Both the position numbers and the translations under genes were made by a program. A stretch of DNA of 64,000 nucleotides from Haematobia irritans. Its lineage: Eukaryota; Arthropoda; Insecta; Diptera; Muscidae. Shown piece after piece: positions 1,657 to 59,319 of this stretch; the first letter of the stretch is position 1; each line of letters opens with the position of its first letter. The stretch lies in NCBI RefSeq assembly GCF_050003625.1, contig NC_134398.1:27249211-27313210 (forward strand). The letters run 5' to 3'. The notes under the pieces are model-generated. The model was not told the DNA's origin. It saw nothing but the letters and a program-made list of their open reading frames with translations, and did no database searches.

Positions 1657-2558
<902 letters not shown>

Positions 2559-2640
<82 letters not shown>

Positions 2641-13300: not shown

Positions 13301-14494
13301 GAAAATTTAATTGATTCAACAACATTTTTTAATTAAAACAAAAATTATGAGTATCAATTAATCAATTCAATTGGATCATTTAATTTTTTAAATTCGGTGA
13401 TTGATACACACAACAAAATCATTTTGGATTCAATTACTTATTGATCCAATTGATTTTTGATAGTCACCAAGGTTAGGTTAGGTTAGGTGGCAGCCCGATG
13501 TATCAGGCTCACTTAGACTATTCAGTCCATTGTGATACCACATTGGTGAACTTCTCTCTTATCACTGAGTGCTGCCCGATTCCATGTTAAGCTCAATGAC
13601 AAGGGACCTCCTTTTTATAGCCGAGTCCGAACGGCGTTCCACATTACAGTGAAACCACTTAGAGAAACTTTGAAACCCTCAGAAATGTCACCAGCATTAC
13701 TGAGGTGGGATAATCCACCGCTGAAAAACTTTTTGGTGTTCGGTCGAAGCAGGAATCGAATCCACGACCTTGTGTATGCAAGGCGGGCATGCTAACCATT
13801 GCACCACGGTGGCTCCCAGTAGTCACCAAAGTCAATATGAAAAATTAATTGATCCAATTAAAAAAATAATTGATCATTTTTAATTGAATATTTTTGAAAA
13901 TTCAATTAAAATTTAAAATTTTAATATTTTGGTGAACATTTTTTCTGTGTACAATCATTCCTGTAATTGAAGACATTTAAATTAAAAATTAGTTGGATCA
14001 ATTAATTTCGTAATTGAATCCAAAATTATTATTATTTTTTTTTTTTCAAAAATTCGAATTTTTTTTAGATAATTATTTAATTTTTTTTTTAAATTATTTC
14101 TACCATTTTAGTAATTTTTACATACAAAATAAGTTAAAATTACCCATAAAAAATATGAAAATAGTGAGTTATAAAAAAATTACTTAAAAGAACTTCCTGT
14201 GTAGTTAAAATAAAGAACATCTTTGGGAGGACATTTTTGGAAGTACTTTTAATGTTGTGGCTTTAGAACAACTTCCAAATTTGTTTTTGCTGGAATGTTT
14301 AACGTGATTATATTCCTTCTCTCCGGGCACTTTTTTGTTGGTTAAGCTAATTCTGTAGATTTAATTTTTTATTTAACGTTTTTATTTTATATATTTTTTT
14401 CTTCTTTAAAATTAACACTCACCGTTTGTAAAGCATTTATTATTGTTATTAAACTATTTAGTAATAAAAAATATTGCCAATATTTTTGTAACAT
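6884..14494 (-). CDS. Secreted acid lipase (alpha/beta hydrolase), three exons
   Basis: Spliced model complement(6884..7306, 12347..13141, 14423..14494), 429 residues, with all introns in phase 0 and bounded by GT/AG. Residues 1-24 are a hydrophobic signal peptide. EYPLERHRIKTDDGYIL (32-48) is the acid-lipase N-terminal motif. LLQHGFG (91-97) is the oxyanion loop, GNQRGNSYS (126-134) the family block and GYSQG (180-184) the nucleophile elbow with Ser182. Asp360 (VTDHLAD) and His392 (WNHYDFLW) complete the triad. Length and motif order match insect neutral/acid lipases of the Lip3/Lip4/magro type, which hydrolyse ester bonds of neutral lipids outside the cell or in the gut or lysosome. A Thr/His-rich insertion at about 55-84 lengthens the loop before the oxyanion motif. 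All catalytic residues are intact, so the gene looks functional. The exact paralogue is not assigned. Confidence 0.93.
7312..7328. repeat. (AG)n / polypyrimidine tract at the lipase intron 2 acceptor
   Basis: GA-rich dinucleotide run on the plus strand. On the coding strand it is a (CT)n polypyrimidine tract directly before the acceptor of exon 3. Confidence 0.7.
7590..7677 (-). repeat. 29-bp satellite, left of the mariner insertion
   Basis: About three satellite units, interrupted after CTATA at 7677 by the DD37E element. The array resumes with GAAATAAA after 8976, so the two pieces were one array. Confidence 0.9.
7678..8974 (+). mobile_element. ITmD37E-like mariner (DD37E) in the satellite
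   Basis: A 1,297-bp element with terminal inverted repeats of about 28 bp: AAGGGTGATACAGTCAAAAT on the left, and AAGGGTGATACGGTCAAAAT reading in from the right. It is flanked by TA duplications at 7676-7677 and 8975-8976. The insertion site is the CTA|TAG of a satellite unit, and removing the element plus one TA restores a normal unit. One transposase gene occupies most of the interior. Confidence 0.93.
7831..8848 (+). pseudogene. DD37E mariner transposase with late frameshift
   Basis: The ATG at 7831 opens a frame beginning MPSKQEEQRIKILLVHREN. It has an N-terminal helix-turn-helix region (KLAKSLKVAKSTVTNVIK), then catalytic Asp in VVMDEETY, Asp in FWPDLASCHY and Glu in LRPIEKYW. Counting from the second Asp gives 37 residues to the Glu (DD37E, as in the ITmD37E lineage). 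The frame stops at 8718 after KKTKNC. One added A in the run at 8706-8711 would restore a C-terminal tail of about 43 residues ending at 8848. The whole catalytic core is open, so the copy lost function recently or is only C-terminally trimmed. In-frame codons upstream of 7831 lack a better start. Confidence 0.9.
8976..12290 (-). repeat. 29-bp satellite array (3.3 kb) in lipase intron 2
   Basis: Minus-orientation units with many variants. It holds a 288-bp higher-order repeat at 9901-10745, plus longer-range duplication: the variant block around 9690-9780 recurs at about 11090-11180. Long minus-strand frames here are satellite translations. Confidence 0.95.
9901..10745 (-). repeat. 288-bp higher-order repeat inside the satellite
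   Basis: Three successive blocks starting at 9901, 10189 and 10477, each beginning TATTGCCAAAAATTTTC and sharing the same ordered set of unit variants (TTTGCGATAAAATATTG, ACTTCATACAAATAAAA, TTAGCAATAAAA). Only isolated base differences separate them, so amplification is recent compared with the divergence between single units. Confidence 0.9.
12347..13141 (-). other. Lipase exon 2 (central catalytic region)
   Basis: Encodes residues 25-289, from EHYILEREY to GGPGMSNIKQ. The acceptor is TTTCCTTTCCAG on the coding strand, ending at 13142, so codons read upstream of Glu25 are intron. The exon ends CAG|GTGAGT. It carries the oxyanion loop and the GYSQG nucleophile. Confidence 0.92.
13236..13955. 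mobile_element. AT-rich foldback element (MITE-like) in lipase intron 1
   Basis: The left arm from ACAGAAAAAAATTTCACC and the right arm to GGTGAACATTTTTTCTGTGT are inverted repeats. They continue inward through AATTGAATTTTCAAAAATAT-like sequence for more than 100 bp. The interior is interrupted by a SINE; without it the element is about 360 bp. Superfamily is not assignable because no clear target duplication was identified. Confidence 0.65.
13471..13819 (-). mobile_element. tRNA-derived SINE
   Basis: The minus strand starts with GCCACCGTGGTGCAATGG, holding a pol III A box (TGGTGCAATGG), and has a B box (GGATTCGATTCC) about 40 nt further on. A ~250-nt body follows, then a CCTAACCTAACCTAACC tail. 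A 10-bp target duplication, TAGTCACCAA, flanks it at 13461-13470 and 13820-13829. Two further copies lie at 21125-21395 and 63520-63690. The element is non-coding and would depend on a partner LINE for mobility. Confidence 0.88.
14060..14293 (-). mobile_element. CCCAGCAAAA family element, partial
   Basis: The minus strand begins CCAGCAAAAACAAATTTGG and continues GTTCTAAAGCCACAACATTA. It aligns over about 200 bp with the element ends at 51899 and near 42690. The distal end is not visible, so this copy is truncated. Confidence 0.6.
14423..14494 (-). other. Lipase exon 1: start codon and signal peptide
   Basis: The ATG at 14494-14492 encodes MLQKYWQYFLLLNSLITI plus INALQT, a 24-residue exon ending ACG|GTGAGT. 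A short charged/polar start, hydrophobic core and small residues near the end fit a signal peptide. Phase-0 junctions with exon 2 place the lipase motif EYPLERH 8 residues after the join, as in insect family members. Too short to appear as a long open frame. Confidence 0.85.
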
Positions 14495-17787: not shown

Positions 17788-19000
17788 ACAAGTAAGGAAA
17801 GTCTAAAGTCGGGCGGGGCCGACTATATTATACCCTGCACCACTTTGTAGATCTAAATTTTCGATACCATATCACATCCGTCAAATGTGTTGGGGCTATA
17901 TATAAAGGTTTGTCCCAAATACATACATTTAAATATCACTCGATTTGGACAGAATTTGATAGACTTCTAAAAAATCTATAGACTCAAAATTTAAGTTGGA
18001 TAATGCAATAGGGTGGAACCCAATTTTAGTAAAAAAAAATATGGGAAACATTTAAATCTGAAGCAATTTTAAGGAAACTTCGCAAAAGTTTATTTATGAT
18101 TTATCGCTCGATATATATGTATTAGAAGTTTAGGAAAATTAGAGTCATTTTTACAACTTTTCGACCAAGCAGTGGCGATTTTACAAGGAAAATGTTGGTC
18201 GAAATCAGAAAAACATATATATGGGAACTAAATCTAAATCTGAACCGATGTCAACCAAATTTGGCACGCATAGCTATAATGCTAATTCTACTCCTTGTGC
18301 AAAATTTCAACTAAATCGGAGTTAAAAATTGGCCTCTGTGGTCATATGAGTGTAAATCGGGCGAAAGCTATATATGGGAGCTATATCTAAATCTGAACCG
18401 ATTTCAACCAAATTTGGCACGCATAGCTACAATTCTAATTCTACTCCCTGTGCAAAATTTCAACTAAATCGGAGCAAAAAATTGGCCTCTGTGGGCAAAG
18501 GAGTGTAAATCGGGCGAAAGCTATATATGGGAGCTATATCTAAATCTGAACCGATTTGGCTGATATTTTGCAAGTTTTTCGAGAGTCATAAAATATTCGG
18601 ATGTACAGAATTTGAGGAAGATCGGTTGATATACACGCCAATTATGACCAGATCGGTGAAAAATATATATGGCAGCTATATCTAAATCTGAACCGATTTT
18701 TTCCAAAATCAATAGGGATCGTCTTTGAGCCGAAACAGGACCCTATACCAAATTTTAGGACAATCGGACTAAAACTGCGAGCTGTACTTTGCACACAAAA
18801 ATACATCAACAGACAGACAGACGGACAGACATACATACAGACAGACAGACAGACAGACGGACATCGCTAACTTGATTCAGAATTTAATTCTAAGACGATC
18901 GTATACTAAACGATGGGTCTCAGACTTTTCCTTCTTGGCGTTACATACAAATGCACAAACTTATTATACCCTGTACCACAGTAGTGGTGAAGGGTATAAA
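17788..19000 (+). repeat. Family B dispersed repeat (51-codon module)
   Basis: A 1.2-kb element inserted in satellite. The head is ACAAGTAAGGAAAGTCTAAA then TATACCCTGCACCAC, and the tail ends ACCCTGTACCAC...GTGGTGAAGGGTATA, so the two termini carry short inverted TATACCC/GGGTATA motifs. The interior holds ~150-bp monomers beginning ATATATGGGAGCTATATC. A (CAGA)n/(CGGA)n tract at 18812-18862 precedes the tail. No autonomous coding sequence is seen. A second full copy lies at 58028-59319 and a tail fragment at 61313-61567. Confidence 0.8.
18812..18862. repeat. CAGA/CGGA microsatellite tract in family B
   Basis: Tetranucleotide-like run (ACAGACAGACAGACGGACAG and on). The same position in families A and C holds shorter GACGGACGGACA tracts, so it is a conserved part of the superfamily rather than a chance microsatellite. 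Confidence 0.85.
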
Positions 19001-20407: not shown

Positions 20408-20897
20408 GCTTTAAAACCATTGTGTTGACTAAACTACAATAGTAGCTTAACCAACAGAGGAAAATAATGTTTGTCAAATTTATTTGGGCAAAGCCCTATA
20501 GACTGCAAGATGGTTGGATGGACGCATGTTTCGGAATTACCACATTCCTCATCAGCATCCTCTACTTGCAGCAAAACTATGAACCAATTATCAGAATAAA
20601 TTCAGGCAGTTCACTAAACCCATGGTGAACCACACTTGAACCTTTCGAAAAAAGGTTTATAATAACCAGCTTATGCCGAAATAAATTCATACAAACATTT
20701 CTCTTTTCCTTTGCCACCATCAAATCATCGATTTGAGTGCAGTTGGCTGGGTTTATTTTGATCGTGCTTCCTCTTACTTCATTCGTGTTTTGTTTTTTAC
20801 TATGGGTTTGTACTTCAATCATATTTGTTGTTTTGATCTCAGCTTTAAAACCATTGTGTTGACTAAACTACAAGAGTAATTTAACCATCAGAGGAAA
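20408..20897 (-). repeat. Retrozyme-like unit, one full copy plus start of a second
   Basis: A block opening GCTTTAAAACCATTGTG restarts at 20842, 434 bp later, so one complete unit plus ~55 bp of the next are present head to tail. The unit encodes a hammerhead ribozyme on the minus strand (20503-20571). Closely related units occur at 27346-28322, 29976-30145, 31036-31092, 44526-44963 and 45466-45676. Low-complexity open frames inside are not conserved as proteins. Confidence 0.8.
20503..20571 (-). ncRNA. Hammerhead ribozyme (copy a)
   Basis: Read on the minus strand: CTGCAAG, internal loop, GGATG, core CTGATGA, stem II GGAAT/ATTCC with a GTGGTA loop, GAAA, a very short stem III, GTC (cleavage after C), CATCC, internal loop, CTTGCAG. 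Both halves of stem I pair perfectly. Stem III reads ACA against CGT, with one mismatch compared with the other copies, so activity may be reduced. Confidence 0.8.
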
Positions 20898-21124
20898 AGA
20901 AATAAAATTTTGACAAAATTCAAAGTCTTTTGCTATATTAATTTTCGTGTTATTTCATACGATCCATTGTTAGTTTATTCTCCCTTTTTAGTTTTTAATA
21001 CTTTTTAACTAACCACAATAATTTCATTTAAAACTTCAAAACAACATATATATTTTTTTTTACTTTGGCAAATTGTGGTAAAATTTCCTTCAAATTTTGG
21101 TAGTTTATTATTGGCACGAGTGGC
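20898..21124. other. Unclassified spacer
   Basis: Short satellite remnant, then AT-rich DNA with TTTGGCAAATTGTGG-like motifs. No feature recognised. Confidence 0.35.
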
Positions 21125-22676: not shown

Positions 22677-25160
22677 ACAAGTATATATGGCCGTAAGTTC
22701 GGCCAGGCCGAATCTTATGTACCCTCCACCATGGATTGCGCAGAAACTTCTACGAAAGACTGTCATCCACAATCGAATTACTTGGGTTTAGGGATCTATA
22801 GTAGAAACCAATAATCGATTTTTCGACTTTTCGATTATTGACTTTTAATCAAAAATTGATTTTCGATTATATTTACCAATCAAAATTCGAATATTCGATT
22901 TTTCATAATCGAATTTCATAGAAATAATGACTATACAAAATAATCAATTTTATGAAATCTATTTGTCTTTTTTCGAGTGTTATCAACAATAGTTGCTATG
23001 AAATGACAAAAATTAGTGTTCTGGTCAAACGTGTTAATTTTTTAATTTGTTTATTATATTTTTAAAAGGTTCAATATAAAATTTTTAACATGTACAAATC
23101 ATTTATCATTATTTCCCAAAATAATGAAGTGTCGCCCCAAATTTGTGGCCATGTTTCATTCCTGGGGCCTGGGGGTATAAATTGAAGGATATTCAAATCA
23201 CAAAGGATTCATTTCCAACACTTTCATATTTTATTTAATCAAATCAGAATTTTTATTCTTATTGGTAATAGAATTCCTTACATATAGACACATTTCAATT
23301 CAATTTAAACCAATGAATAAAACATTAAAATCGATTTGTGAAAGTCAAAATTAAAAAAATAGTTGAAAATCCAAAATCTATATTTGATCGTCAAAATTAA
23401 AAATTAGTCGAAAATCTAAAATCGATTTTGCGATTATTTTTAGGTTGATAATCGATTTCGATTTTTTTAGATTTTCATGCCAATATTCGAATAATCGATT
23501 AATCGATTTTCGATTTATAGATCCCTACTTGGGTTGTGGTATCTTAAATCGTTTTCTAAATTTTGAGTTAGTCCATACGTGGTATATATTAGACAAAAAA
23601 GGTATGTGTAGGTAAGTCTACAAATAATTACGAATCGATATGAACTTTCGCACGGTACGTAGAGAGCCAGAATTGAAATATGGGGGTCGCTTATATGGGG
23701 GCTATATACAATTATGAACTTGATATGGACCAATTTTTGTGTGATTGGGGATCGATTTATCTGAGGGCTATATATAACTATAGACCGATATGGACCTAGT
23801 TAGGCATGGTTGTTAACGGCCATATACTAGCACAATGTACCAAATTTCAACTGACTCGGATGAAATTTGCTCCTCCAAGAGGCTCCAAAACCAAATCTCC
23901 GGATCGGTTTATATGGGGGCTATATATGATTATGAACTGATATGGACCACTTTTGGCATGGCTGTTAAATATCATACACTACCACCACGTACTAAATTTC
24001 AACCAGATCGGATGAATTTTGCTTCTCCAAAAAGCACCGGTGGTCAAATCGGGGGATCGGTTTATATATTACGGACTGATATGAACCAATTCCTGCATGG
24101 TTGTTGGATACCATATGCTAACATCACGTACCAAATTTCAACCGAATCGGATGAATTTTGCTCTTCCAAGGGGCTCCGGAGGTCAAATCTGGGGATCGGT
24201 TTTTATGGGGGCTATATATAATTATGGACCGATTTCGACCAATTTTTGCATGGGTGTTTGATGCCATATATTAACACCTCGTACCAAATATCAACTGAAT
24301 CAGATGAATTTTGTTCTTCCAATAGGCTCCGGGGGTCAAATCTGTACTAAATTTCAGCCGGATCGGATGAAATTTGCTTCTCTTAGAGGCTCCGCAAGCC
24401 AAATCGGGGGATCGGTTTATATGGGGGCTATATATAATTATATACCGATGTGTACCAATTTTTGCACAGTTGTTAGAGGCTATATACTAACACCATGTAC
24501 CAAATTTCAGCAGGATCGGATGAAATTTTCTTCTCTTAGAGGCTCTGCAAGCCAAATCTGGGGATCGGTTTATATGGGGGCTATATATAATTATGGACCG
24601 ATGTGGACCAATTTTTGCATGGTTGTTAAAGACCAGATACTAACACCATGTACCAAATTTCAGCCGGATCGGATAAAATTTGTTTCTCTTAGAGGCTCCG
24701 CAAGCCAAATCGGGGGATCGGTTTATATGGGGGCTACATATAATTATGGACCGATGTGTACCAATTTTTGCACAGTTGTTAGAGACCATATACAAACACC
24801 ATGTACAAAATTTCAGCTAGATCGGATGAAATTTGCTTCTCTTAGAGGGTCTGCAAGCCAAATTTGGGGATCCGTTTATATGGGGGCTATACGTAAAAGT
24901 GGACCGATATGGCCCATTTGCAATACCATCCGACCTACATCAATAACAACTACTTGTGCCAAGTTTCAAGCTGATAGCTTCTTTCGTTCGGAAGTTAGCG
25001 TGATTTCAACAGACGGACGGACGGACATGCTCAGATCGACACAGAATTTCACCACGACCCAGAATATATATACTTTATGGGGTCTTAGAGCAATATTTCG
25101 ATGTGTTACAAACGGAATGACAAAGTTAATATAGCCCCCCATCCTATGGTGGAGGGTATA
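22677..25160 (+). repeat. Family A dispersed repeat, long copy (153-bp module array)
   Basis: The head AACAAGTATATATGGCCGTA contains the palindrome GGCCGTAAGTTCGGCC. The middle is a tandem array of ~153-bp modules, clearest at 24344, 24497, 24650 and 24803, each with GGGGATCGGTTTATATGGGG and TACCAAATTTCAG. The tail has CGGACGGACGGACATGCTC, CAGAATATATATACTTTATG and the terminus GGTGGAGGGTATA. An uninterrupted frame of 276 codons (24304-25134) exists because the module is a multiple of three. A hAT-like element is inserted at 22789-23527. Confidence 0.85.
22789..23527. mobile_element. Non-autonomous hAT-like element
   Basis: A 739-bp element with perfect 12-bp inverted termini TAGGGATCTATA/TATAGATCCCTA and an exact 8-bp target duplication CTTGGGTT (22781-22788 and 23528-23535). 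Subterminal DNA is packed with AATCGATT-type motifs on both sides. The 8-bp duplication and YAGGG-type end indicate the hAT superfamily. No transposase remains. It splits the long family A copy. Confidence 0.88.
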
Positions 25161-27014: not shown

Positions 27015-27345
27015 TATTAGAAATAAAATTTTGACCAAATTTTCTATAGAAATACAATTTTGACCGAATATTCAATCGAAATAAAAATTTCTATAGAAAT
27101 AAAAATTTCTATAGAAATATATTTTGCAAATATTTCTATAGAACTCAAATTTTGAAAAAAAAATCAATAGAACTCAAAAAAAAATCTATAGAAATAAAAT
27201 TTTGGTAAAAATTTTCTATAGAAATAAAATTTGGGAAAAAATTTTCTATAGAAATAAAATTTTGACAACATTTTCTATAGCAATAAAATGTTGACAACAT
27301 TTTCTATATAAAATTTGAATAAAATTTTCTATAGAAATAAAATTC
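27015..27345 (-). repeat. 29-bp satellite, short diverged array
   Basis: About 11 degenerate units in the minus orientation, ending at the retrozyme-like block. Confidence 0.88.
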
Positions 27346-27496
27346 GTTTTGTTTTGTTATTGTTGGTTTTTTTCTTTAACCATTGTTGTTGTTTTTGATT
27401 TCAGCTTAAAACCATACATTGACTAAACTACAAGTGTAGCTTAACGAACAGAGGAAAAGTATGCTTGTCAAATTTATTTGGGCAAAGCCATATAGA

Positions 27497-27565
27497 CTGC
27501 AAGATGGTTGGATGGACGCACGTTTCGGAATTACCACATTCCTCATCAGCATCCTCTACTTGCAG
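27497..27565 (-). ncRNA. Hammerhead ribozyme (copy b)
   Basis: All parts are intact on the minus strand: stem I CTGCAAG/CTTGCAG and GGATG/CATCC around an internal loop, CTGATGA, stem II GGAAT-GTGGTA-ATTCC, GAAA, stem III ACG/CGT with a 2-nt loop, cleavage site GTC. The 69-nt length equals copies d-g. Confidence 0.88.
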
Positions 27566-27932
27566 CAAAACTATCAACCAATTATCAGAATAAATACAGG
27601 CAGTTCACTAAACCCAAAAGTGAACCACACTTGAACCTTCCGAAAAAAGATTTTACACGATAGCCGGCTTATGCCAAAATAAATTCGACAAACATATTTC
27701 TTTTCCTTTGCCACCGTCAAATCATCGATTTGAGTGCAGTTGGCTGGGTTTATTTTGAGCGTGCTTCCTCTTTTTTTCATTCGTTTTGTTTTGTTATTGT
27801 TGGTTTTTTCTTTAACCATTGTTGTTGTTTTTGATTTCAGCTTAAAACCATGCATTGACTAAACTACAAGTGAAGCTTAACCAACAGAGGAAAATAGTGT
27901 TTGTCAAATTTATTTGGGCAAAGCCCTATAGA

Positions 27933-27993
27933 CTGCAAGATGGTTGGATGGACTCACGTTTCGGAATTACCACATTCCCCATCAGCATACTCT
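27933..27993 (-). ncRNA. Degenerate hammerhead ribozyme (copy c)
   Basis: Same fold, but the core reads CTGATGG instead of CTGATGA, stem I is GTATG against CATCC, stem III is ACG/AGT, and the outer CTTGCAG arm is lost at the inversion junction. Expected to be inactive. Confidence 0.7.
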
Positions 27994-28148
27994 ACTTTGA
28001 CGGTGGCAAAGGAAAACAATATGTTTGTACGAATTTATTTTCGGCATAAGCCGGCTATCATGTAAAACCTTTTTTCGGAAGGTTCAAGTGTGGTTAATTG
28101 TTGGGTTTAATGAACTGAATTTATTCTGATAATTGGTTGATAGTTTTG

Positions 28149-28217
28149 CTACATGTAGAGGATGCTGATGAGGAATGTGGTAATTCCGAAACGTGCGTCC
28201 ATCCAACCATCTTGCAG
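28149..28217 (+). ncRNA. Hammerhead ribozyme (copy d)
   Basis: Plus-strand copy in inverted orientation to b and c. The core CTGATGA, GAAA, GTC, stem II and inner stem I (GGATG/CATCC) are intact. The outer stem I is weakened (CTACATG against CTTGCAG). Confidence 0.85.
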
Positions 28218-28322
28218 TCTATAGGGCTTTGCCCAAAAAAATTTGACAAACATTTTTTTCCTCTGTTGGTTAAGTTACACTTGTAGTTTAGTCAATGCAT
28301 GGTTTTAAGCTGAAATCAAAAA

Positions 28323-29975
28323 CAACAACAATAGAAATAAAATTTTGACAAAAATTTTCTATAGAAAAACAATTTGAGAAAATTGTCTATTGAAATAAAA
28401 TTTTGACAATTTTTTTTTTCTATAGAAATAAAATTTTGATAAAATTTTCTGTAGAAATAAAAATTTGACAAAATTGTCCATAGAAATAAAATTTTGACAA
28501 CATTTTCCATTAAATAAAATTTTGGAAAATTTTTCTATAGATATAATATTTTGAGAAAATTTTCTACAGAAATAAAATTTTGACAAAATTTTCTATAGAA
28601 ATAAAATTTTGACAGAATTTTCTATAGAAATATAATTTTGACAAAATTTTCTATAGAAATAAAATTTTGACAGAATTTTCTATAGAAATAAAATTTGGAG
28701 AGAATTTTCTATAGAAATAAAAATTTTACAACATTTTTCATTAAATAAAATTTTGAAAAAATTTTCTATAGATATAATATTTTGAGAAAATTTTGCTATA
28801 GAAATAATTTCTATAGAAAAAATTTTCTATAGAAATAAAATTTTGACAGAATTTTCTATAGAAATAAAATTTTGACAGAATTTTCTATAGAAATAAAATT
28901 TTGACAAAATTTTCTATAGAAATAAAATTTTAACAAAATTTTCTATAGAAATAAAATTTTGACAAAATTTTCAATAGAAATAAATTTTTGACAAAATTTT
29001 CTAGAAATAAAATTTTGACAGAATTTTCTATAGAAATATAATTTTGACAAAATTTTCTATAGAAATAAAATTTTGACAGAATTTGCTATAGAAATAAAAT
29101 TTGGAGAGAATTTTCTATAGAAATAAAAATTTTACAACATTTTTCATTAAATAAAATTTTGAAAAAATTGTCTATAGATATAATATTTTGCGAAAATTTT
29201 CTATAGAAATAATTTCTATAGAAAAAATTTTCTATAGAAATAAAATTTTGACAAAATTGTCTATAGAAATAAAATTTTGACAGAATTTTCTATAGAAATA
29301 AAATTTTGACAGAATTTTCTATAGAAATAAAATTTTGACAAAATTTTCTATAGAAATAAAATTTTAAAAAATTTTCTATAGAAATAAAATTTTGACAAAA
29401 TTTTCAATAGAAATAAATTTTTGACAAAATTTTCTATAGAAATAAAATTTTGATAAAATTTTGACATTTTCTATAGAAATAAAAATTTGACATTTTCTGT
29501 AGCAATGAAATTTTGACAACATTTTCCATAGAAATAAAAATTTTACAAAATATTCCATTAAATAAAATTTTGAAAAAATTTCTATAGATATAATAATTTT
29601 GAGAAAAATTTCTGTAGAAATAAAATTTTGACAACATTTTCTATAGAAATAAAATTTTGACAGAATTTTCTATAGAAATAAAATTTTGACAGAGTTTTCT
29701 ATAGAAATAAAATTTGGAGAAAATTTTCTATAGAAATAAATATTTGACAACATTTTCTACTAAATAAAATTAAAAAAAAAAAATTTCTATAGATATATAA
29801 TTTTGAGAAAATTTTCTATAGAAATAAAATTTTAACAAAATTTTCTAAAGAAATAAAATTTTAACAAAATTTTATATAAAAATAAAATGTTGACAAAACT
29901 TTCTATAGAAATAAAATGTTGACAAAATTCTCTATAGAAATATAATTTTGACAAAATATTCTATAGAAATATAAT
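28323..29975 (-). repeat. 29-bp satellite array with ~406-bp higher-order period
   Basis: Minus-orientation units. A variant series (TTTGGAGAGAATTTTC, ACAACATTTTTCATTAAATA, TATAATATTTTG) occurs at about 28690 and 29100, and in part near 29530-29720. Confidence 0.94.
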
Positions 29976-30145
29976 TTCTTTTCTGATAATTGGTTGATAG
30001 TTTTGCTGCAAATAGAGGATGCTGATGAGGAATGTGGTAATTCCGAAACGTGCGTCCATCCAACCATCTTGCAGTCTATAGGGCTTCGTCCAAATAAATT
30101 TGACAAATATTCTTTTCCTCTGTTGGTTAAGCTACACATGTAGTT
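29976..30145 (+). repeat. Retrozyme-like unit fragment
   Basis: About 165 bp from CTGATAATTGGTTGATAG through the ribozyme to CTACACATGTAGTTTAG, joined to satellite on both sides. It contains ribozyme copy e. Confidence 0.8.
30006..30074 (+). ncRNA. Hammerhead ribozyme (copy e)
   Basis: 69 nt. Core bases CTGATGA, GAAA and GTC, stem II GGAAT/ATTCC, stem III ACG/CGT and inner stem I are intact. Outer stem I has a single change (CTGCAAA against CTTGCAG). Confidence 0.85.
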
Positions 30146-31035
30146 TAGTAAATTTTCTATAGAAATAAATTTTTGACAAAATTTTCTATAGAATTAAAAT
30201 TTTGACAAACATTTTCTATAGAAAAACAATTTGAGAAAATTGTCTATTGAAACAAAATTTTGACAAATTTTTTTCTATAGAAATAAAATTTTGGAAAAAT
30301 TTTCTATGGATATAATAATTTTTAGAAAATTTTCTATAGAAATAAAATGTTGATAAAATTTTCTGTAGAAATAAAATTTTGAAAAAATTTTCAATAGAAA
30401 TAAATTTTTGACAAAATTTTCTATTGAAATAAAATTTTGATAAAATTTTCTGTAGAAATAAAATTTTGAACTTTTCTATAGAAATAAAAACTTTACAACA
30501 TTTTCCATTAAATAAAATTTTGAAAAAATTTTTTATATAGATATAATATTTTGAGAAAATTTTCTATAGAAATAAAATTTTGACAAAATTTTCTATAGAA
30601 ATAAAATTTTGACAAAATTTTCTATAGAAATAAAATTTTGACAAAATTTTCTATAGAAATAAAATTTTGACAAAATTTTCTATAGAAATAAAATTTTGAC
30701 AAAATTTTCTATAGAAATAAAATTTTGACAAAATTTTCAATAGAAATAAAATTTTGACAAAATTTTCTATAGAAATAAAATTTTGACAAAATTTCTACAA
30801 AATTTGCTATCGAAAATTTTCTATAGAAATAAGATTATAGAACATTTTTTCTATAGAAATAAAATTTTCTATAGAATTAAATAAAATTAATAAAATTTTG
30901 ACAAAATTTTCTATAGAAATAAAATTTTGACAAAATTTTCTATAGAAATAAAATTGTGACAAAATTTTCTATAGAAATAAAATTTTGACAAAATTTTCTA
31001 TAGAAATAAAATTTTGACAAAATTTTCAATAGAAA
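30146..31035 (-). repeat. 29-bp satellite array, clean units
   Basis: 30541-30780 holds some of the least diverged units in the window, at exactly 29 bp spacing (GACAAAATTTTCTATAGAAA plus ATAAAATTT). Confidence 0.95.
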
Positions 31036-31092
31036 TAAAATTGTAGTTTAGTCAATGCATGGTTTTAAGCTGAAATCAAAAACAACAACAAT
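31036..31092 (+). repeat. Retrozyme-like unit end fragment
   Basis: About 57 bp (TGTAGTTTAGTCAATGCATG, GGTTTTAAGCTGAAATC, AACAACAACAA) matching the unit end at 28275-28322, again flanked by satellite. It lacks the ribozyme. Confidence 0.75.
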
Positions 31093-32204
31093 GAAATAAA
31101 ATTTTCTATAGAACTAAACGTTGACAAAATTGTGTATAGAAATAAAATTTTGGCAACATTTTCTATTAAATACAATTTTGAAAAAAAATCTATAGAAAAA
31201 AATTTTGTATTTCCCTTTGGCCCACAATCTTGTTTTTTTTTATCTAAACAAATCATTCAATTCTTCTAAAAACAAACCGAATTAATAAACCATTGCAGAC
31301 ATCTTTAATAAATATCGCAAAATATACCAAAACTAGTGGGAAAAGCGATAAAAAAGAAACCAAAACAAATATCAAAAAAAAAAAACTTTAGTATGTCAAG
31401 TTCAACTGGTTTGAAGCCATGTATTTGTATAGAGCATAACATAGAGATAAACGTACGGTCTGCCTACCAAACGATTTAGTGAAAGTAAATGAAAGTGAGT
31501 GCATTTAGCCGGTAGTGGATACCAATGAAGATAGCACCAACTTCGAACACAAAGTTGAATGACTTGTTCGTTAAGTATGGATGGTCAAATGACTTCAAAA
31601 AGTGCAGTTTTATTTATTAGCGGAAATTGCAGAAAAGCATTATTATGAGATTTTGAGGCAATTAGTCACAATTGTTATATACAGGAAATTTTAGTATTTA
31701 TTTATTACTTGATTTAGTATAATTATAAATTTTATTTATAAGAGCACTAGCAGAATAGAAAATAAAACAAATTAGTAATTTTTTTTATAGATTAAGATAA
31801 AAGTGTTTCTTATTATTTATAGCGACATATAGATTCAATATTACATAAACCTATCTTTCATCTTAAAACTTTGACCTTAAAATATGTTCACCACAAACGC
31901 AGCAAATGTTTGCTTGTTTTTTTTTTTAATACTAAAAATGATGCATTACTTAGTTAGAATGTGAGCTTATAATTAAAAGGTTATTTGTGGTTTGCTTAAC
32001 CATCATCTGTCATTCAATCTATGTGGTGTTAATCTTCCTAGTATTTTGAAAATTAATGGCATTCCTAATGAAGATCAAAACTCTTATATAAAATTCGTTG
32101 TTTTTTTTTTTGGCAAAGTGTTCAATATACGACAACAATATACTATATGTTTAAATCCATAAATAAAACCTCATTTATTTCCTTGTATTGGATAACATGC
32201 CATG
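31093..32204. other. Satellite remnant, then DNA with no recognised gene
   Basis: A few degraded satellite units to about 31205, then about 1 kb of AT-rich DNA without domain-bearing frames, tandem repeats or element ends. Confidence 0.4.
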
Positions 32205-32631: not shown

Positions 32632-32725
32632 TAACTCTCTCATAGATAGTTAACACTCCCCCCTCTTCTTGCAATATAAAATGTAATCACAATGCAAATG
32701 AAATTCACGATGTCTACAGTAAATA

Positions 32726-33659
32726 AAGGGTGATTCTTTTGAGGTTAGGATTTTCATGCATTAGTATTTGACAGATCACGTGGGATTTCAGACATGGTGT
32801 CAAAGAGAAAGATGCTCAGTATGCTTTGACATTTCATCATGAATAGACTTACTAACGAGCCACAACGTCGAATTTTCAGTGAATGGGCCCTAGAAAAGTT
32901 GGCAGAAAATCCGCTTTTTTATCGACAAATTTTGTTCAGCGATGAGGCTCATTTCTGGTTGAATGGCTACGTAAATAAGCAAAATTGCCGCATTTGGAGT
33001 GAAGAGCAACCAGAAGCCGTTCAAGAACTGCCCATGCATCCCGAAAAATGCACTGTTTGGTGTGGTTTGTACGCTGGTGGAATCATTGGACCGTATTTTT
33101 TCAAAGATGCTGTTGGACGCAACGTTACGGTGAATGGCGATCGCTATCGTTCGATGCTAACAAACTTTTTGTTGCCAAAAATGGAAGAACTGAACTTGGT
33201 TGACATGTGGTTTCAACAAGATGGCGCTACATGCCACACAGCTCGCGATTCTATGGCCATTTTGAGGGAAAACTTCGGAGAACAATTCATCTCAAGAAAT
33301 GGACCGGTAAGTTGGCCACCAAGATCATGCGATTTGACGCCTTTAGACTATTTTTTGTGGGGCTACGTCAAGTCTAAAGTCTACAGAAATAAGCCAGCAA
33401 CTATTCCAGCTTTGGAAGACAACATTTCCGAAGAAATTCGGGCTATTCCGGCCGAAATGCTCGAAAAAGTTGCCCAAAATTGGACTTTCCGAATGGACCA
33501 CCTAAGACGCAGCCGCGGTCAACATTTAAATGAAATTATCTTCAAAAAGTAAATGTCATGGACCAATCTAACGTTTCAAATAAAGAACCGATGAGATTTT
33601 GCAAATTTTATGCGTTTTTTTTTAAAAAAAAGTTATCAAGCTCTTAACAAATCACCCTT
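32726..33659 (+). mobile_element. rosa-like (DD41D) mariner, internally deleted, copy 1
   Basis: A 934-bp element starting AAGGGTGATTCTTTTGAG and ending ...ACAAATCACCCTT, flanked by TA at 32724-32725 and 33660-33661. It is nearly identical to the copy at 61845-62777 but has a different deletion in the transposase N-terminal region. It sits only in the left unit of the local duplication, so insertion followed the duplication. Confidence 0.9.
32839..33552 (+). pseudogene. DD41D mariner transposase lacking the DNA-binding domain
   Basis: A 237-codon open frame. MNRLTNE matches the start of the other copy's transposase (61845-62777) and is joined in frame to PQRRIFSEWALEKLAENPLF, which leads into the catalytic domain. 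Catalytic residues are Asp in LFSDEAHFW, Asp in WFQQDGATCHT and Asp in LTPLDYFLWG, the last two 41 residues apart (DD41D, the rosa group). Mariner transposases are usually about 340 residues, so about 100 residues including both helix-turn-helix motifs are missing. The frame is otherwise uninterrupted, so a catalytic-domain-only protein could be made. It should not bind element ends in the normal way. Confidence 0.85.
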
Positions 33660-33787
33660 TATTACCCTACGATGTAGCTTTCCGATTACGATAATCACAG
33701 AATTAAATATCGAGCAAAGAATTTTAATATTTGAATAAAAACAATACACGACGTATATTAAAGGTATATTGAAGCATAAGTTTGAAG

Positions 33788-43524: not shown

Positions 43525-44525
43525 TTGTCAAAATTTGTCAAAATTTTATTTCCATAGAAAATTTTGTAAAATTTTTATTTCTATAGAAAATTTTGTCAAA
43601 ATTTTATTTCCATAGAAAATTTTTTCAGATTTTATTTCCATAGAAAATTTTTTCAGATTTTATTTCTATAAATTAATTCTATAAATTAATAAATTAATTC
43701 TATAAATAAATAATTTTGTCAAAATTTTATTTCTATAGAAAATTTTGTCAACATTTTATTTCTATAGAAAATTTTGTCAACATTTTATTTCTATAGAAAA
43801 TTTTGTCAAAATTTTATATCTATAGAACATTTTGTCAAAATTTTATTTCTATAGAAAATTTTCTAAAAATTTTATTTCTACAGAAAATTTTCTCAAAATT
43901 TTATTTCTATAGAAAATTTTCTCAAAATTTTATTTCTACAGAAAATTTTGTCAAAATTTTATTTCTATAAAAAATTATGTCAAATTTTTATTTCTATAGA
44001 AAATTTTGCCAAAATTTTATTTCTATAGAAAATTTTGTCAAAATTTTATTTCTATAGGAAATTTTGTCAAAATTTTATTTCTAAAGTAAATTTTGTCAAA
44101 ATTTTATTTCTATAAAAAATTTTGTAAAAATTTTATTTCTATAAAAAATTTTGTCAAAATTTTATTTCTGTAAAAAATTTTGTCAAAATTTTATTTCTAT
44201 AAAAAATTTTGTCAAAATTTTATTTCCATGGAAAATTTTGTCAAAATTTTATTTGTATAAAAAAGTATGTCAAAATTTTATTTCTATAGAAAATTTTATT
44301 TATATAGAGAATTTTATCAAAATTTTATTTCTAAAGAAAATTTTGTCCAAATTTTATCTCTATAAAAAATTCTGTCAAAATTTTATTTCTATAGAAAATT
44401 TTATCAAAATTTTATTTATATAGAAAATTTTATCAAAGTTTTATTTCTAAAGAAAATTTTATCAAAATTTTATTTCTAAAGAAAATTTTGTCAAAATTTT
44501 ATTTCTATAGAAAATTTTATCAAAA
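43525..44525 (+). repeat. 29-bp satellite array, reverse orientation
   Basis: First of the arrays whose units read TTTTGTCAAAATTTTA on the plus strand, opposite to almost all others. Clean units lie at 43720-44220. Confidence 0.95.
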
Positions 44526-44963
44526 GAAGAGGAAGCACGCTCAAAATAAACCCAGACAACTGCATTCAAATCGGTGATTTGACAGTGGCATAGGAAAAGA
44601 GATATGTTTGTTTCGAATTTATTTCGGCATAAGCCGGCTATCATACAAAACCTTTTTTCGGAAGGTTCAAGTGTGGTTCATTGTTGGGTTTAATGAACTG
44701 GCTGAATTTATTCTGATAATTGGTTGATAGTTTTGCTGCAAGTAGAGGATGCTGATGAGGAATGTGGTAATTCCGAAACGTGCGTCCATCCAACCATCTT
44801 GCAGTCTATATGGCTTTGCCCAAATAAATTTGACAAACATTCTTTTCCTCTGTTGGTTAAGCTACACTTGTAGTTTAGTCAATGTATGGTTTTAAGCTGA
44901 AATAAAAAAAACAACAACAATGCTTAAAGAACAAAACCAACAATAACAAAACAAAACGAATGG
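44526..44963 (+). repeat. Retrozyme-like unit, single complete monomer
   Basis: About 437 bp, from AGAGGAAGCACGCTCAAAAT to ACAAAACAAAACGAATGG. The ends are contiguous in the tandem unit at 27346-28000, so this is one full circular permutation flanked on both sides by satellite. It contains ribozyme copy f. Exactly one unit length between unrelated flanks is what insertion from a circular or unit-length RNA would give. Confidence 0.8.
44736..44804 (+). ncRNA. Hammerhead ribozyme (copy f)
   Basis: Fully intact 69-nt motif: CTGCAAG/CTTGCAG and GGATG/CATCC in stem I, CTGATGA, stem II GGAAT-GTGGTA-ATTCC, GAAA, stem III ACG/CGT, GTC. The best reference copy in the window. Confidence 0.9.
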
Positions 44964-45465
44964 AAAATTTTATTTCTATAGAAAATTTTGTCAAAATTTT
45001 ATTTCTATAGAAAATTTTGTCAAAAGTTTATTCCTACAGAAAATTTTGTCAAATTTTTATTTCTATAGCAAATTTTGTCAAAATTTTATTTCTATAGAAA
45101 ATTTTGTCAAAAGCTTATTTCTATAGTTTTTTTTCAAAATTTTACTTTTTAGAAAATTTTCTAAATTTTTTATTTCTATAGAAAATTTTTTAAAAATTTT
45201 ATTTCTATACAAAATTTTGTCAAAATTTTATTTCTATAAAAAGTTTTGTCAAAATTTTATTTCTATCGAAAATTTTGTCAAAATTTTATTTCCATAGAAA
45301 TTATTGTCAATGTTTTTTTCTATAGAAAATTATTTTAAAATTTTATTTCCATAGAAAATTTTGTCAATTTTGTTTTTTTCTAAAAAAAATTGTCTATAGA
45401 AAATTTTGTTAAAATTTTATTTCTGTTGAAAATTTTGTCACAATTTTATTTCTATAAAAAATTTT
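44964..45465 (+). repeat. 29-bp satellite array, reverse orientation
   Basis: Continues after the inserted retrozyme-like monomer, with more indels (TTTTTTTTC runs) than the preceding array. Confidence 0.93.
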
Positions 45466-45676
45466 GTTGTTGTTTTTTTTTTATTTCAGCTTAAAACCAT
45501 ACATTGACTAAACTACAAGAGTAGCTTAACCAACAGAGGAAAAGAATGTTTGTCAAATTTATTTGGGCAAAGCCCTATAGACTGCAAGATGGTTGGATGG
45601 ACGCACGTTTCGGAATTACCACATTCCTCATCAGCATCCTCTACTTGCAGCAAAACTATCAACCAATTATCAGAAT
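45466..45676 (-). repeat. Retrozyme-like unit fragment
   Basis: About 210 bp from GTTGTTGTT...TTTCAGCTTAAAACC through the ribozyme to CAACCAATTATCAGAAT, flanked by satellite. It is inverted relative to the complete unit 500 bp to its left. Confidence 0.8.
45582..45650 (-). ncRNA. Hammerhead ribozyme (copy g)
   Basis: Intact 69-nt motif on the minus strand, same core and stems as copy f. Confidence 0.88.
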
Positions 45677-58027: not shown

Positions 58028-59319
58028 AACAAGTAAGGAAAGTCTAAAGTCGGGCGATGCCGACAATATTATACCCTGCACCACTTTGTAGATCTAAATT
58101 TTCGATACCATATCACTTCGGTCAAATGTGTTGAGTGCTATATATAAAGGTTTGTCCCAAATACATACGTTTAAATATCACTCGATTTGGACAGAATTTG
58201 AAAGGCTTTTACAAAATCTATAGACTCAAAATTTAAGTTGGCTAATGCACTAGGGTGGAACACTATTTTAGTAAAAAAAAAATATGGGAAACATTAAATC
58301 TGAAGCAATTTTAAGGAAACTTCGCAAAAGTTTATTTATGATTTATCGCTCGATATATATGTATTAGAAGTTTAGGAAAATTAGAGTCATTTTTACAACT
58401 TTTCGACTAAGCAGTGGCGATTTAACAAGGAAAATGTTACCAACATTGACCATTTTTGTCGAAATCAGAAAAACATATATATGGGAGCTATATCTAAATC
58501 TGAACCGATTTCAACCAAATTTGGCACGCATAGCAACAATGCTTATTCTACACCCTGTGCAAAATTTTATCTAAATCGGAGTTAAAAATTGGCCTCTGTG
58601 GTCATACGAATGTAAATCGGGCGAAAGCTATATATGGGAGATATATTTAAATCTGAACCGATTTCAACCAACTTTGGCACGCACAGATAGAATGTTAATT
58701 CTACTCCCTGTGCAAAATTTCAACTAAATCGGAGCAAAAAATTGGCCTCTGTGGTCCTATGAGTGTAAATCGGGTGAAAGCTATATATGGGAGCTATATC
58801 TAAATCTGAACCGATTTCAACCAAATTTGGCACGCATAGCAACAATGCTAAATTTACTCCTAGTGCAAAATTTCAAACAAATTGGGCAAAAACTCTGGCT
58901 TCTAGGACCATATTAGTCCATATCGGGCGAAAGATATATATGGGAGCTATATCTAAATCTGAATCGATTTCAATCAAATTTGGCGCGCATAGCTACAATG
59001 CTAAATCTACTCCCTGTGCAAAATTTCAACCAAATTGGGCCAAAACTCTGGCTTTTAGGACCATATTAGTCCATATCGGGCGAAAGATATATATGGGAGC
59101 TGTATCTAAATCTGAACCGATTTCAATCAAATTTTTCACACTTGACTATACTACTAATTGTACTCCTAGTGCAAAATTTCAACCAAATTCGGCCAAAAAT
59201 CTGTCTTCTGGGGCCATATAAGTCCATATCGGGCGAAAGATATATATGGGAGCTATATCTAAATCTGAACCGATTTCAATCGAATTTTGCACCTGTTCCA
59301 CAGTGTGGCGCAGGGTATA
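58028..59319 (+). repeat. Family B dispersed repeat, second full copy
   Basis: Same head (ACAAGTAAGGAAAGTCTAAA) as 17788. It has six ~153-bp modules, with ATATATGGGAGCTATATC starting near 58476, 58629, 58782, 58935, 59088 and 59241, and a short tail ending CACAGTGTGGCGCAGGGTAT. It is inserted in satellite, as the first copy is. A 144-codon frame (58787-59221) is open across three modules. Confidence 0.85.

Follow-up and report, generated by a model that had tools for sequence, protein, structure and literature searches.

What kind of element places two hammerhead units head to tail with a third facing the other way, and how does such a group come to be inserted in a fly chromosome? The question is raised by a locus in a 64,000-nucleotide stretch of the genome of the horn fly, Haematobia irritans, called the window here. 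The earlier note placed the hammerhead units at 27346-28322; a retrozyme insertion is present there, and its actual span is 27345-28330. This single insertion consists of two tandem minus-strand units joined head-to-head to a plus-strand unit. Stem II of the minus units lies at 27527 and 27963, 436 bp apart as had been claimed, and that of the third unit, rightly called inverted, at 28172 on the plus strand. The left arm (27345-27996, minus strand, 1.5 units) has its 3' end (..CAAAACAAAACG) at site A, immediately beyond unit position 436, and the right arm (27997-28330, plus strand, about 0.77 unit) has its 3' end at site B (..CAACAACA), the two end sites being defined below. The tandem minus units meet the inverted unit 5'-to-5', with both 3' ends outward. 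The earlier note overlooked that the arms diverge with their tails outward and that their 3' ends lie at two alternative sites. GC content is 37% for the unit, and the longest open frame in the insertion has 94 codons. Identical 14-bp repeats, ATAGAAATAAAATT, flank the insertion on the left (27331-27344, plus strand) and right (28331-28344, plus strand); they are non-diagnostic inside a 29-bp satellite because the plus strand of the window holds the same 14 bp 230 times.

By its letters, the motif belongs to the type I hammerheads: stem I is in two parts, stem II has 5 bp, stem III is short, and GUC is present. Unit 1 has the core of this type (CUGANGA, GAAA and GUH) together with an open-ended stem I and stems II and III. 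The stems described in the earlier note (CTGCAAG/CTTGCAG, GGATG/CATCC, GGAAT/ATTCC and ACG/CGT, with GTC) hold for unit 1, and not all of them for its neighbours. Hammerhead 1 (27497-27565, minus strand) has an intact core, and a cut between 27515 and 27514 is predicted from the hammerhead fold. Hammerhead 2 (27933-27997, minus strand) is degenerate and predicted inactive: its outer stem I is 5'-truncated, the motif beginning at unit position 221 within that stem, and it carries a core A to G change (CTGATGG), GTATG in stem I and CGTGAGTC in stem III. Hammerhead 3 (28149-28217, plus strand, predicted cut after 28199) has an intact core and a mispaired outer stem I, with CTACATG where unit 1 has CTGCAAG. 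Of these three hammerheads, only that of unit 1 looks intact.

The covariance-model check proposed in the earlier note partly went against its reading. In Rfam, no model reaches its gathering threshold anywhere in the window, a search of 27300-28400 gives no hammerhead even at E up to 10, and Hammerhead_1 scores 16.1 bits on an isolated 91-bp stretch of unit 3 (cut-off 34, E 0.13). The gathering score is a library threshold and not a defining feature of the hammerhead fold. A MIR7533 match on 27300-28400 (41.1 bits, cut-off 230) was set aside, being read as a match to the inverted repeat that the insertion itself forms. Folded alone to minimum energy, the unit 1 motif keeps outer stem I and stem II and loses the exact catalytic fold; for units 2 and 3, shuffled sequences fold at least as well as the isolated motifs. 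The complete unit is strongly self-paired (-130 kcal/mol, z -6.4).

Further copies lie in the window. One, of 1.12 units, is at 20411-20899 on the minus strand, with a hammerhead at 20503-20571 whose stem III pair is broken (ACATGCGT). Another is interrupted by satellite: its 5' part, with a hammerhead at 30006-30074, lies at 29981-30153 (plus strand), and what is apparently its 3' part resumes at TGTAGTTTAGT within 31036-31101 (plus strand). The 29-bp satellite array that splits this copy, at 30139-31052, is about 890 bp long. It is bordered on each side by the 11-bp TGTAGTTTAGT (30139-30149 and 31042-31052), which would be expected if the array had itself been inserted with target duplication. 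The remaining two, at 44519-44967 (plus strand, 1.02 units, hammerhead 44736-44804) and 45445-45676 (minus strand, 5'-truncated, hammerhead 45582-45650), have intact hammerheads and face each other without touching, 478 bp apart. The window also holds an element at 32720-33670 that we take to be mariner-like, with inverted ends AGGGTGATT / AATCACCCT and one open frame of 237 codons (32839-33552) in which Pfam finds nothing at E 0.01. Tandem arrays of 153-bp period occur at 18216-18557, 24343-24891 and 58471-59292; the one at 24343-24891 matches an abundant repeat that flanks some retrozymes.

These copies belong to a very large family. The 1.17-Gb genome has 6,797 matches to the exact 35-nt motif and none to the motif read backwards, and the pattern CTGATGA-N16-GAAAC-N4-GTH, which describes the intact architecture, occurs at 13,699 places against 3 in the backwards control. 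Retrozyme copies are dispersed across all five large contigs; searches of viral_contigs and genome_contigs with an exact 29-nt motif gave 0 matches each. A second subfamily, seen in loci L002 and L031, numbers 3,208 exact copies (backwards control 0) and differs by five letters changed together, ACG-UG-CGU becoming ACA-GC-UGU and GUC becoming GUA. In stem III the third pair changes from G-C to A-U, and G,C takes the place of U,G as the two innermost letters; at the cleavage position A replaces C. Both the stem III pairing and GUH are kept. The broken one-step intermediate, ACATGCGT, has 99 copies and the core-dead G8A form 81, numbers that look like decay. For a third form, ACGGCCGUU, the count is a single exact copy, and it is therefore not treated as a subfamily.

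The compensatory change in stem III is a single evolutionary event and not thousands of them, and covariation across an alignment of 60 copies lends the base pairing weak support: two pairs are changed on both sides, a number reached by 57 of 500 shuffles, and the covariation score is 0.045 vs 0.040, matched by 8 of 500 shuffles. Conservation was read from 50 copies, a set that omits the query unit and the loci found through the hammerhead itself (L002-L008). The core is intact in 35 of these and changed in 15, and there is no core-specific conservation among copies (core 2.8%, rest of the hammerhead 2.7%); the copy alignment places the hammerhead inside a broader conserved zone of the unit. 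The stem III octamers of both subfamilies are self-complementary, their 8-mer duplexes reaching -8.8 kcal/mol in subfamily 1, which has U-G wobbles, and -11.1 kcal/mol in subfamily 2. In the folding model the 2-bp stem III of a monomer contributes no stability, the energies being -16.1 with it and -17.1 without in subfamily 1, and -16.8 with and -17.1 without in subfamily 2. Two molecules, or two tandem units, could instead form a double hammerhead through this self-complementary stem.

Neighbours were counted as motif places within 1.5 kb among the first 100 of 6,797 and the first 100 of 3,208 matches, all on contig C1. Among these listed matches, subfamily 1 gives 9 tail-out, 22 tandem and 0 tail-in neighbours, and subfamily 2 gives 13 tail-out, 12 tandem (11 of the 12 at unit spacing) and 0 tail-in, that is, 22 tail-out vs 0 tail-in for both together. 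Tandem units are spaced 440-442 bp apart in subfamily 1 (22 intervals) and 427-437 bp in subfamily 2 (11 intervals), and spacing varies less within arrays than between them, a result equalled in 0 of 20,000 permutations in a test that omits one 1,132-bp same-strand pair. Unit-spaced tandems occur in 10 of 69 and 5 of 75 exact-motif clusters among the matches listed. In the array at C1:18098424-18102629, five units run one way and six the other, with 441 bp within each arm.

The same pattern is found in 37 loci, namely the window insertion, L002-L008 and L010-L038. Touching units are '-+' 16 times, '+-' 0 times and on the same strand 31 times; divergent insertions with touching arms occur in 18 of the 37 loci and convergent ones in none. 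Two facing pairs, that in the window and one in L021 (1340-1951, plus strand, and 2325-2601, minus strand, 374 bp apart), do not touch, and we read both as separate insertions. Runs span from 0.13 to about 3 units with scattered 5' ends, and two complete hammerhead regions stand in tandem in at least 7 of the 37 (L002, L010, L017, L024, L026, L028 and L037). Six copies (L012, L030, L032, L034, L036 and L038) are almost exactly one unit long, with their 5' end at unit position 1-7, where site A starts; this end may be either a transcript start or the end of one full lap of a circle. The share of such copies is biased because loci were selected by their match to the whole unit. Similarity is 0.92 between opposite arms of one insertion, 0.91 between different insertions and 0.94 between tandem neighbours. 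Opposite arms are barely closer than copies from different insertions, and the same-template test gave no signal for them.

Where the runs begin varies more than where they stop. Across the 37 loci, most 3' ends lie at one of two sites in an AC-rich stretch, some 40 nt from each other: site A, at unit positions 436 to 11 (..CAAAACGAATGAAAA), and site B, at unit positions 396-412 (..CAACAATG). The exceptions include L016, which ends at 87, and interrupted copies. Of the 18 divergent insertions, 16 have ends that could be read by eye (L010 and L016 were omitted), and 13 of these have one A end and one B end, two being A/A and one B/B (one-sided binomial p 0.011). Retrozyme 3' ends show no consistent poly(A) tail. 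Some retrozyme ends lie directly against the termini (..GGGTATA or ACAAGTATATAC..) of a different repeat, itself very abundant, on the 5' side in L012, L023, L030 and L038 and on the 3' side in L008 and L026, four loci at unit position 6-7; those termini are a possible insertion hot spot. A shared promoter in L012, L023, L030 and L038 was considered and dropped, the common 5' flank being the end of that repeat.

The flanks were compared for 30 insertions, 14 of which have at least one satellite-poor flank. Allowing one mismatch, flank matches of at least 12 bp are present in 6 of the 14, against 12 of 182 mismatched pairs; they measure 12-17 bp, and all six fall among the 9 insertions with both flanks satellite-poor. 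In the other 8 of the 14, clear flank duplication is absent. The 29-bp satellite lies on at least one side of 21 of the 30 insertions, and flanks are satellite-rich in 34 of 64 cases beside insertions vs 12 of 64 at locus ends. The targets are therefore AT-rich.

These ends closely resemble those of Penelope-like elements (PLEs). In PLEs, both strands are cut and extended, reverse transcription starts internally at an AC-rich stem loop, and a 30-40-bp tail is optional (PMC11167929); head-to-head pLTRs, a tail at one inverted end and short target site duplications are described in the available part of PMC3846280. The retrozyme shares with them tail-out inverted copies, tandem partial copies, an AC-rich 3' start region, an optional 30-40-bp tail and AT-rich targets, and 6 of 14 insertions have short flank matches. 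It differs in having neither a reverse transcriptase nor an endonuclease, and its flank matches of 12-17 bp compare with 8-10 bp in rotifer PLEs (PMC3846280, available part). Tail-out arrays with two alternative 3' ends point to Penelope-like integration. Five PLE protein queries found no match in the 64-kb window; therefore the retrozyme falls outside the PLEs, despite inserting in their manner.

The horn fly genome does contain PLEs. A PF01541 search led, with weak scores, to Penelope-type genes, and a 260-aa piece of one of them found 38 proteins among 153 candidates. Protein P0001 (418 aa, Haematobia) has the reverse transcriptase domain RVT_1 (E 8.3e-9); its C-terminus shares 65% identity with P0030. 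The latter scores above the GIY-YIG cut-off, and GIY-YIG is not listed for P0001 itself. A 200-aa piece of L062 matches the region of P0001 that follows the reverse transcriptase (E 2e-18) and gives 150 scored places of 1,026 candidates in the genome, 27 of the 150 with open frames of 700-874 codons. Pfam names no domain in three PLE pieces. Over 149 of the 150 places (the C114 row was omitted), neighbours 400-7,000 bp apart, that is, within 7 kb, are 13 times tail-out, 9 times same-strand and once tail-in.

The PLE copies have a hammerhead-like motif of their own, CTGA[A/T]GA..GTCGAAACGTT, which differs from that of the retrozyme. At one PLE 5' junction, CTGAAGA..GTCGAAACGTT is followed by AC-rich letters and then a start codon; Rfam finds no hammerhead there at E up to 10, and the retrozyme unit has no significant similarity to this junction, the best match having E 0.17. 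One AC-rich match, with E 0.47, falls within the PLE frame at about 91-112 nt from its start. The motif, as CTGA[A/T]GAAGACAACA..TTGTCGAAACGTT, is also seen in PLE copies at L042:1206(-), L044:1165(-) and L071:408(+). Two apparent cases of a unit inside a PLE (L044/L062 and L045/L063) were rejected; they are separate insertions, one in satellite and the other lying some 0.9 kb upstream of a fragmentary PLE. The comparison of the retrozyme with the PLE copies of this genome is one of orientation.

Taken together, these observations probably describe a horn-fly family of non-coding hammerhead repeats of about 427-442 bp, predicted to yield unit-length RNAs that are likely circularised and copied by a PLE reverse transcriptase with its GIY-YIG endonuclease. 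A non-autonomous fly retrozyme, as the earlier note had proposed, remains the best reading of AT-rich units that carry a type I hammerhead, form tandem dimers as well as multimers, pair strongly with themselves and have no PLE-protein match in the window. Its opposite, random fragments of a larger protein-coding element, does not agree with the abundance of tandem junctions elsewhere and with units that have no long frame (at most 94 codons). We infer self-cleavage, a circular RNA and mobilisation in trans, and retrozymes are likely spread by the PLE enzyme. A tandem copy would be transcribed, and its hammerheads, probably paired through their self-complementary stem III, would release monomers that a host ligase may close into circles, by analogy with published retrozymes. 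To judge from the ends seen, the PLE enzyme would nick AT-rich DNA on both strands, and cDNA would start at each nick within the AC-rich stretch, at site A or B. Synthesis may then run for up to several laps, and the two cDNAs would join at their 5' sides. The expected product is the arrangement observed, a head-to-head array with 3' ends outward, usually one A and one B.

A more specific version is held tentatively: retrozymes may be PLE satellites that exploit two-sided, target-primed rolling-circle reverse transcription of hammerhead-made circles, the enzyme starting at either of two AC-rich sites and going round several times from each nick before the two concatemers are joined head to head, with self-complementary tetraloops pairing the tandem hammerheads. 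If true, the two-sided rolling-circle reading would explain both the spread of retrozymes and the inverted, tailed insertions of Penelope.

The most serious alternative keeps the family and the PLE enzyme and makes the template a linear, multimeric read-through transcript, the hammerhead being irrelevant to transposition. In the element PAc, hammerhead mutants have no effect on insertion in vitro, insertion proceeds with dead hammerheads, no reads end at the cut site, and reverse transcription starts alike on both strands (PMC11167929). Insertion may therefore not depend on ribozyme function, and the strand-equal starts of PAc offer no parallel for the A/B asymmetry of retrozyme insertions. 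Likewise, none of the runs mapped in the horn-fly loci begins or stops at the cut (unit 267/268), and 15 of 50 copies have a changed core. A linear template would nevertheless have to cross up to six intact hammerheads uncut in the 5 + 6 array on C1, and the core-dead G8A form stands at 81 copies against the 3,208 of the compensated form. Uniform spacing within arrays fits a monomeric circle, although a homogeneous source array would also give it. Since the core is not specially conserved and PAc inserts without activity, the case for a role of the hammerhead in spread draws on three things: the existence of the compensated subfamily, the low number of core-dead copies, and analogy. On balance, we regard the linear template as unlikely and still worth serious consideration.

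Movement of a non-autonomous element by a LINE-type reverse transcriptase is improbable, though twin priming also produces inverted 5' parts and LINE-type frames, recognised by eye, are present in the genome. The 3' ends have no consistent poly(A) tail, insertion orientation agrees with that of the horn-fly PLE copies, and the two internal AC-rich starts with outward 3' ends match published PLE insertions (PMC11167929; PMC3846280, available part). Spread of a tandem hammerhead satellite at the DNA level, by unequal exchange, gene conversion or extrachromosomal circles, would account for tandem units and for the 29-bp satellite beside 21 of 30 insertions on at least one side, but is very improbable in the face of 3' ends that recur while the 5' truncations are scattered, touching inversions that are exclusively tail-out, flank matches in 6 of 14 insertions and copies across all five large contigs.

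The preferred reading, a hammerhead retrozyme copied by a PLE enzyme, can be set beside the systems already described. The metazoan non-LTR retrozymes of Cervera and de la Pena 2020 are, in the part of that paper available (PMC7229834), likewise small low-GC tandem repeats with a type I hammerhead, found as dimers to multimers with self-paired RNA in genomes that also hold PLEs; their short stem III carries a tetraloop that is palindromic in one axolotl form. The horn-fly unit has low GC, no ORF and a self-paired RNA, and the absence of LTRs was judged by reading. At 427-442 bp it is above the 170-400-nt RNAs and within the 150-450-bp repeats given there. Head-to-head arrays with alternative PLE-like 3' ends, which the horn-fly family has, are not seen in that available text.

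Other hammerheads are similar by description. Those of newt and axolotl satellites, with a unit of about 330-350 bp, also have a weak helix III and in one form a palindromic tetraloop, and their activity as dimers is demonstrated (PMC7229834, same part), whereas that of horn-fly units is predicted. Among Diptera, the available text of Perreault 2011 (PMC3088659) describes interspersed Aedes aegypti repeats whose hammerheads have a loop III that could fully pair in a dimer, proposes the dimer and assigns no mobiliser. Type III hammerheads of Musca are reported (PMC3088659 and PMC7936874, in part), and insects are named among metazoan retrozyme hosts (PMC7229834, same part). In open-licence literature, screened mostly as listings, neither the horn-fly family nor PLE-type ends on retrozymes were found.

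In the parts available of two 2020 papers (PMC7229834, PMC7761336), the mobiliser of animal retrozymes is described as open; because they share features and co-occur with retrozymes, PLEs are named there as a strong or likely candidate. The horn-fly repeats appear to be an abundant new dipteran family of this known metazoan kind, with new sequence evidence on the mobiliser. They bear on how animal retrozymes are mobilised and supply hammerhead variants from nature in large number, among them one with a compensated stem III. With Penelope-type insertion ends and many long open PLE frames in the same genome, the question of the mobiliser becomes directly testable.
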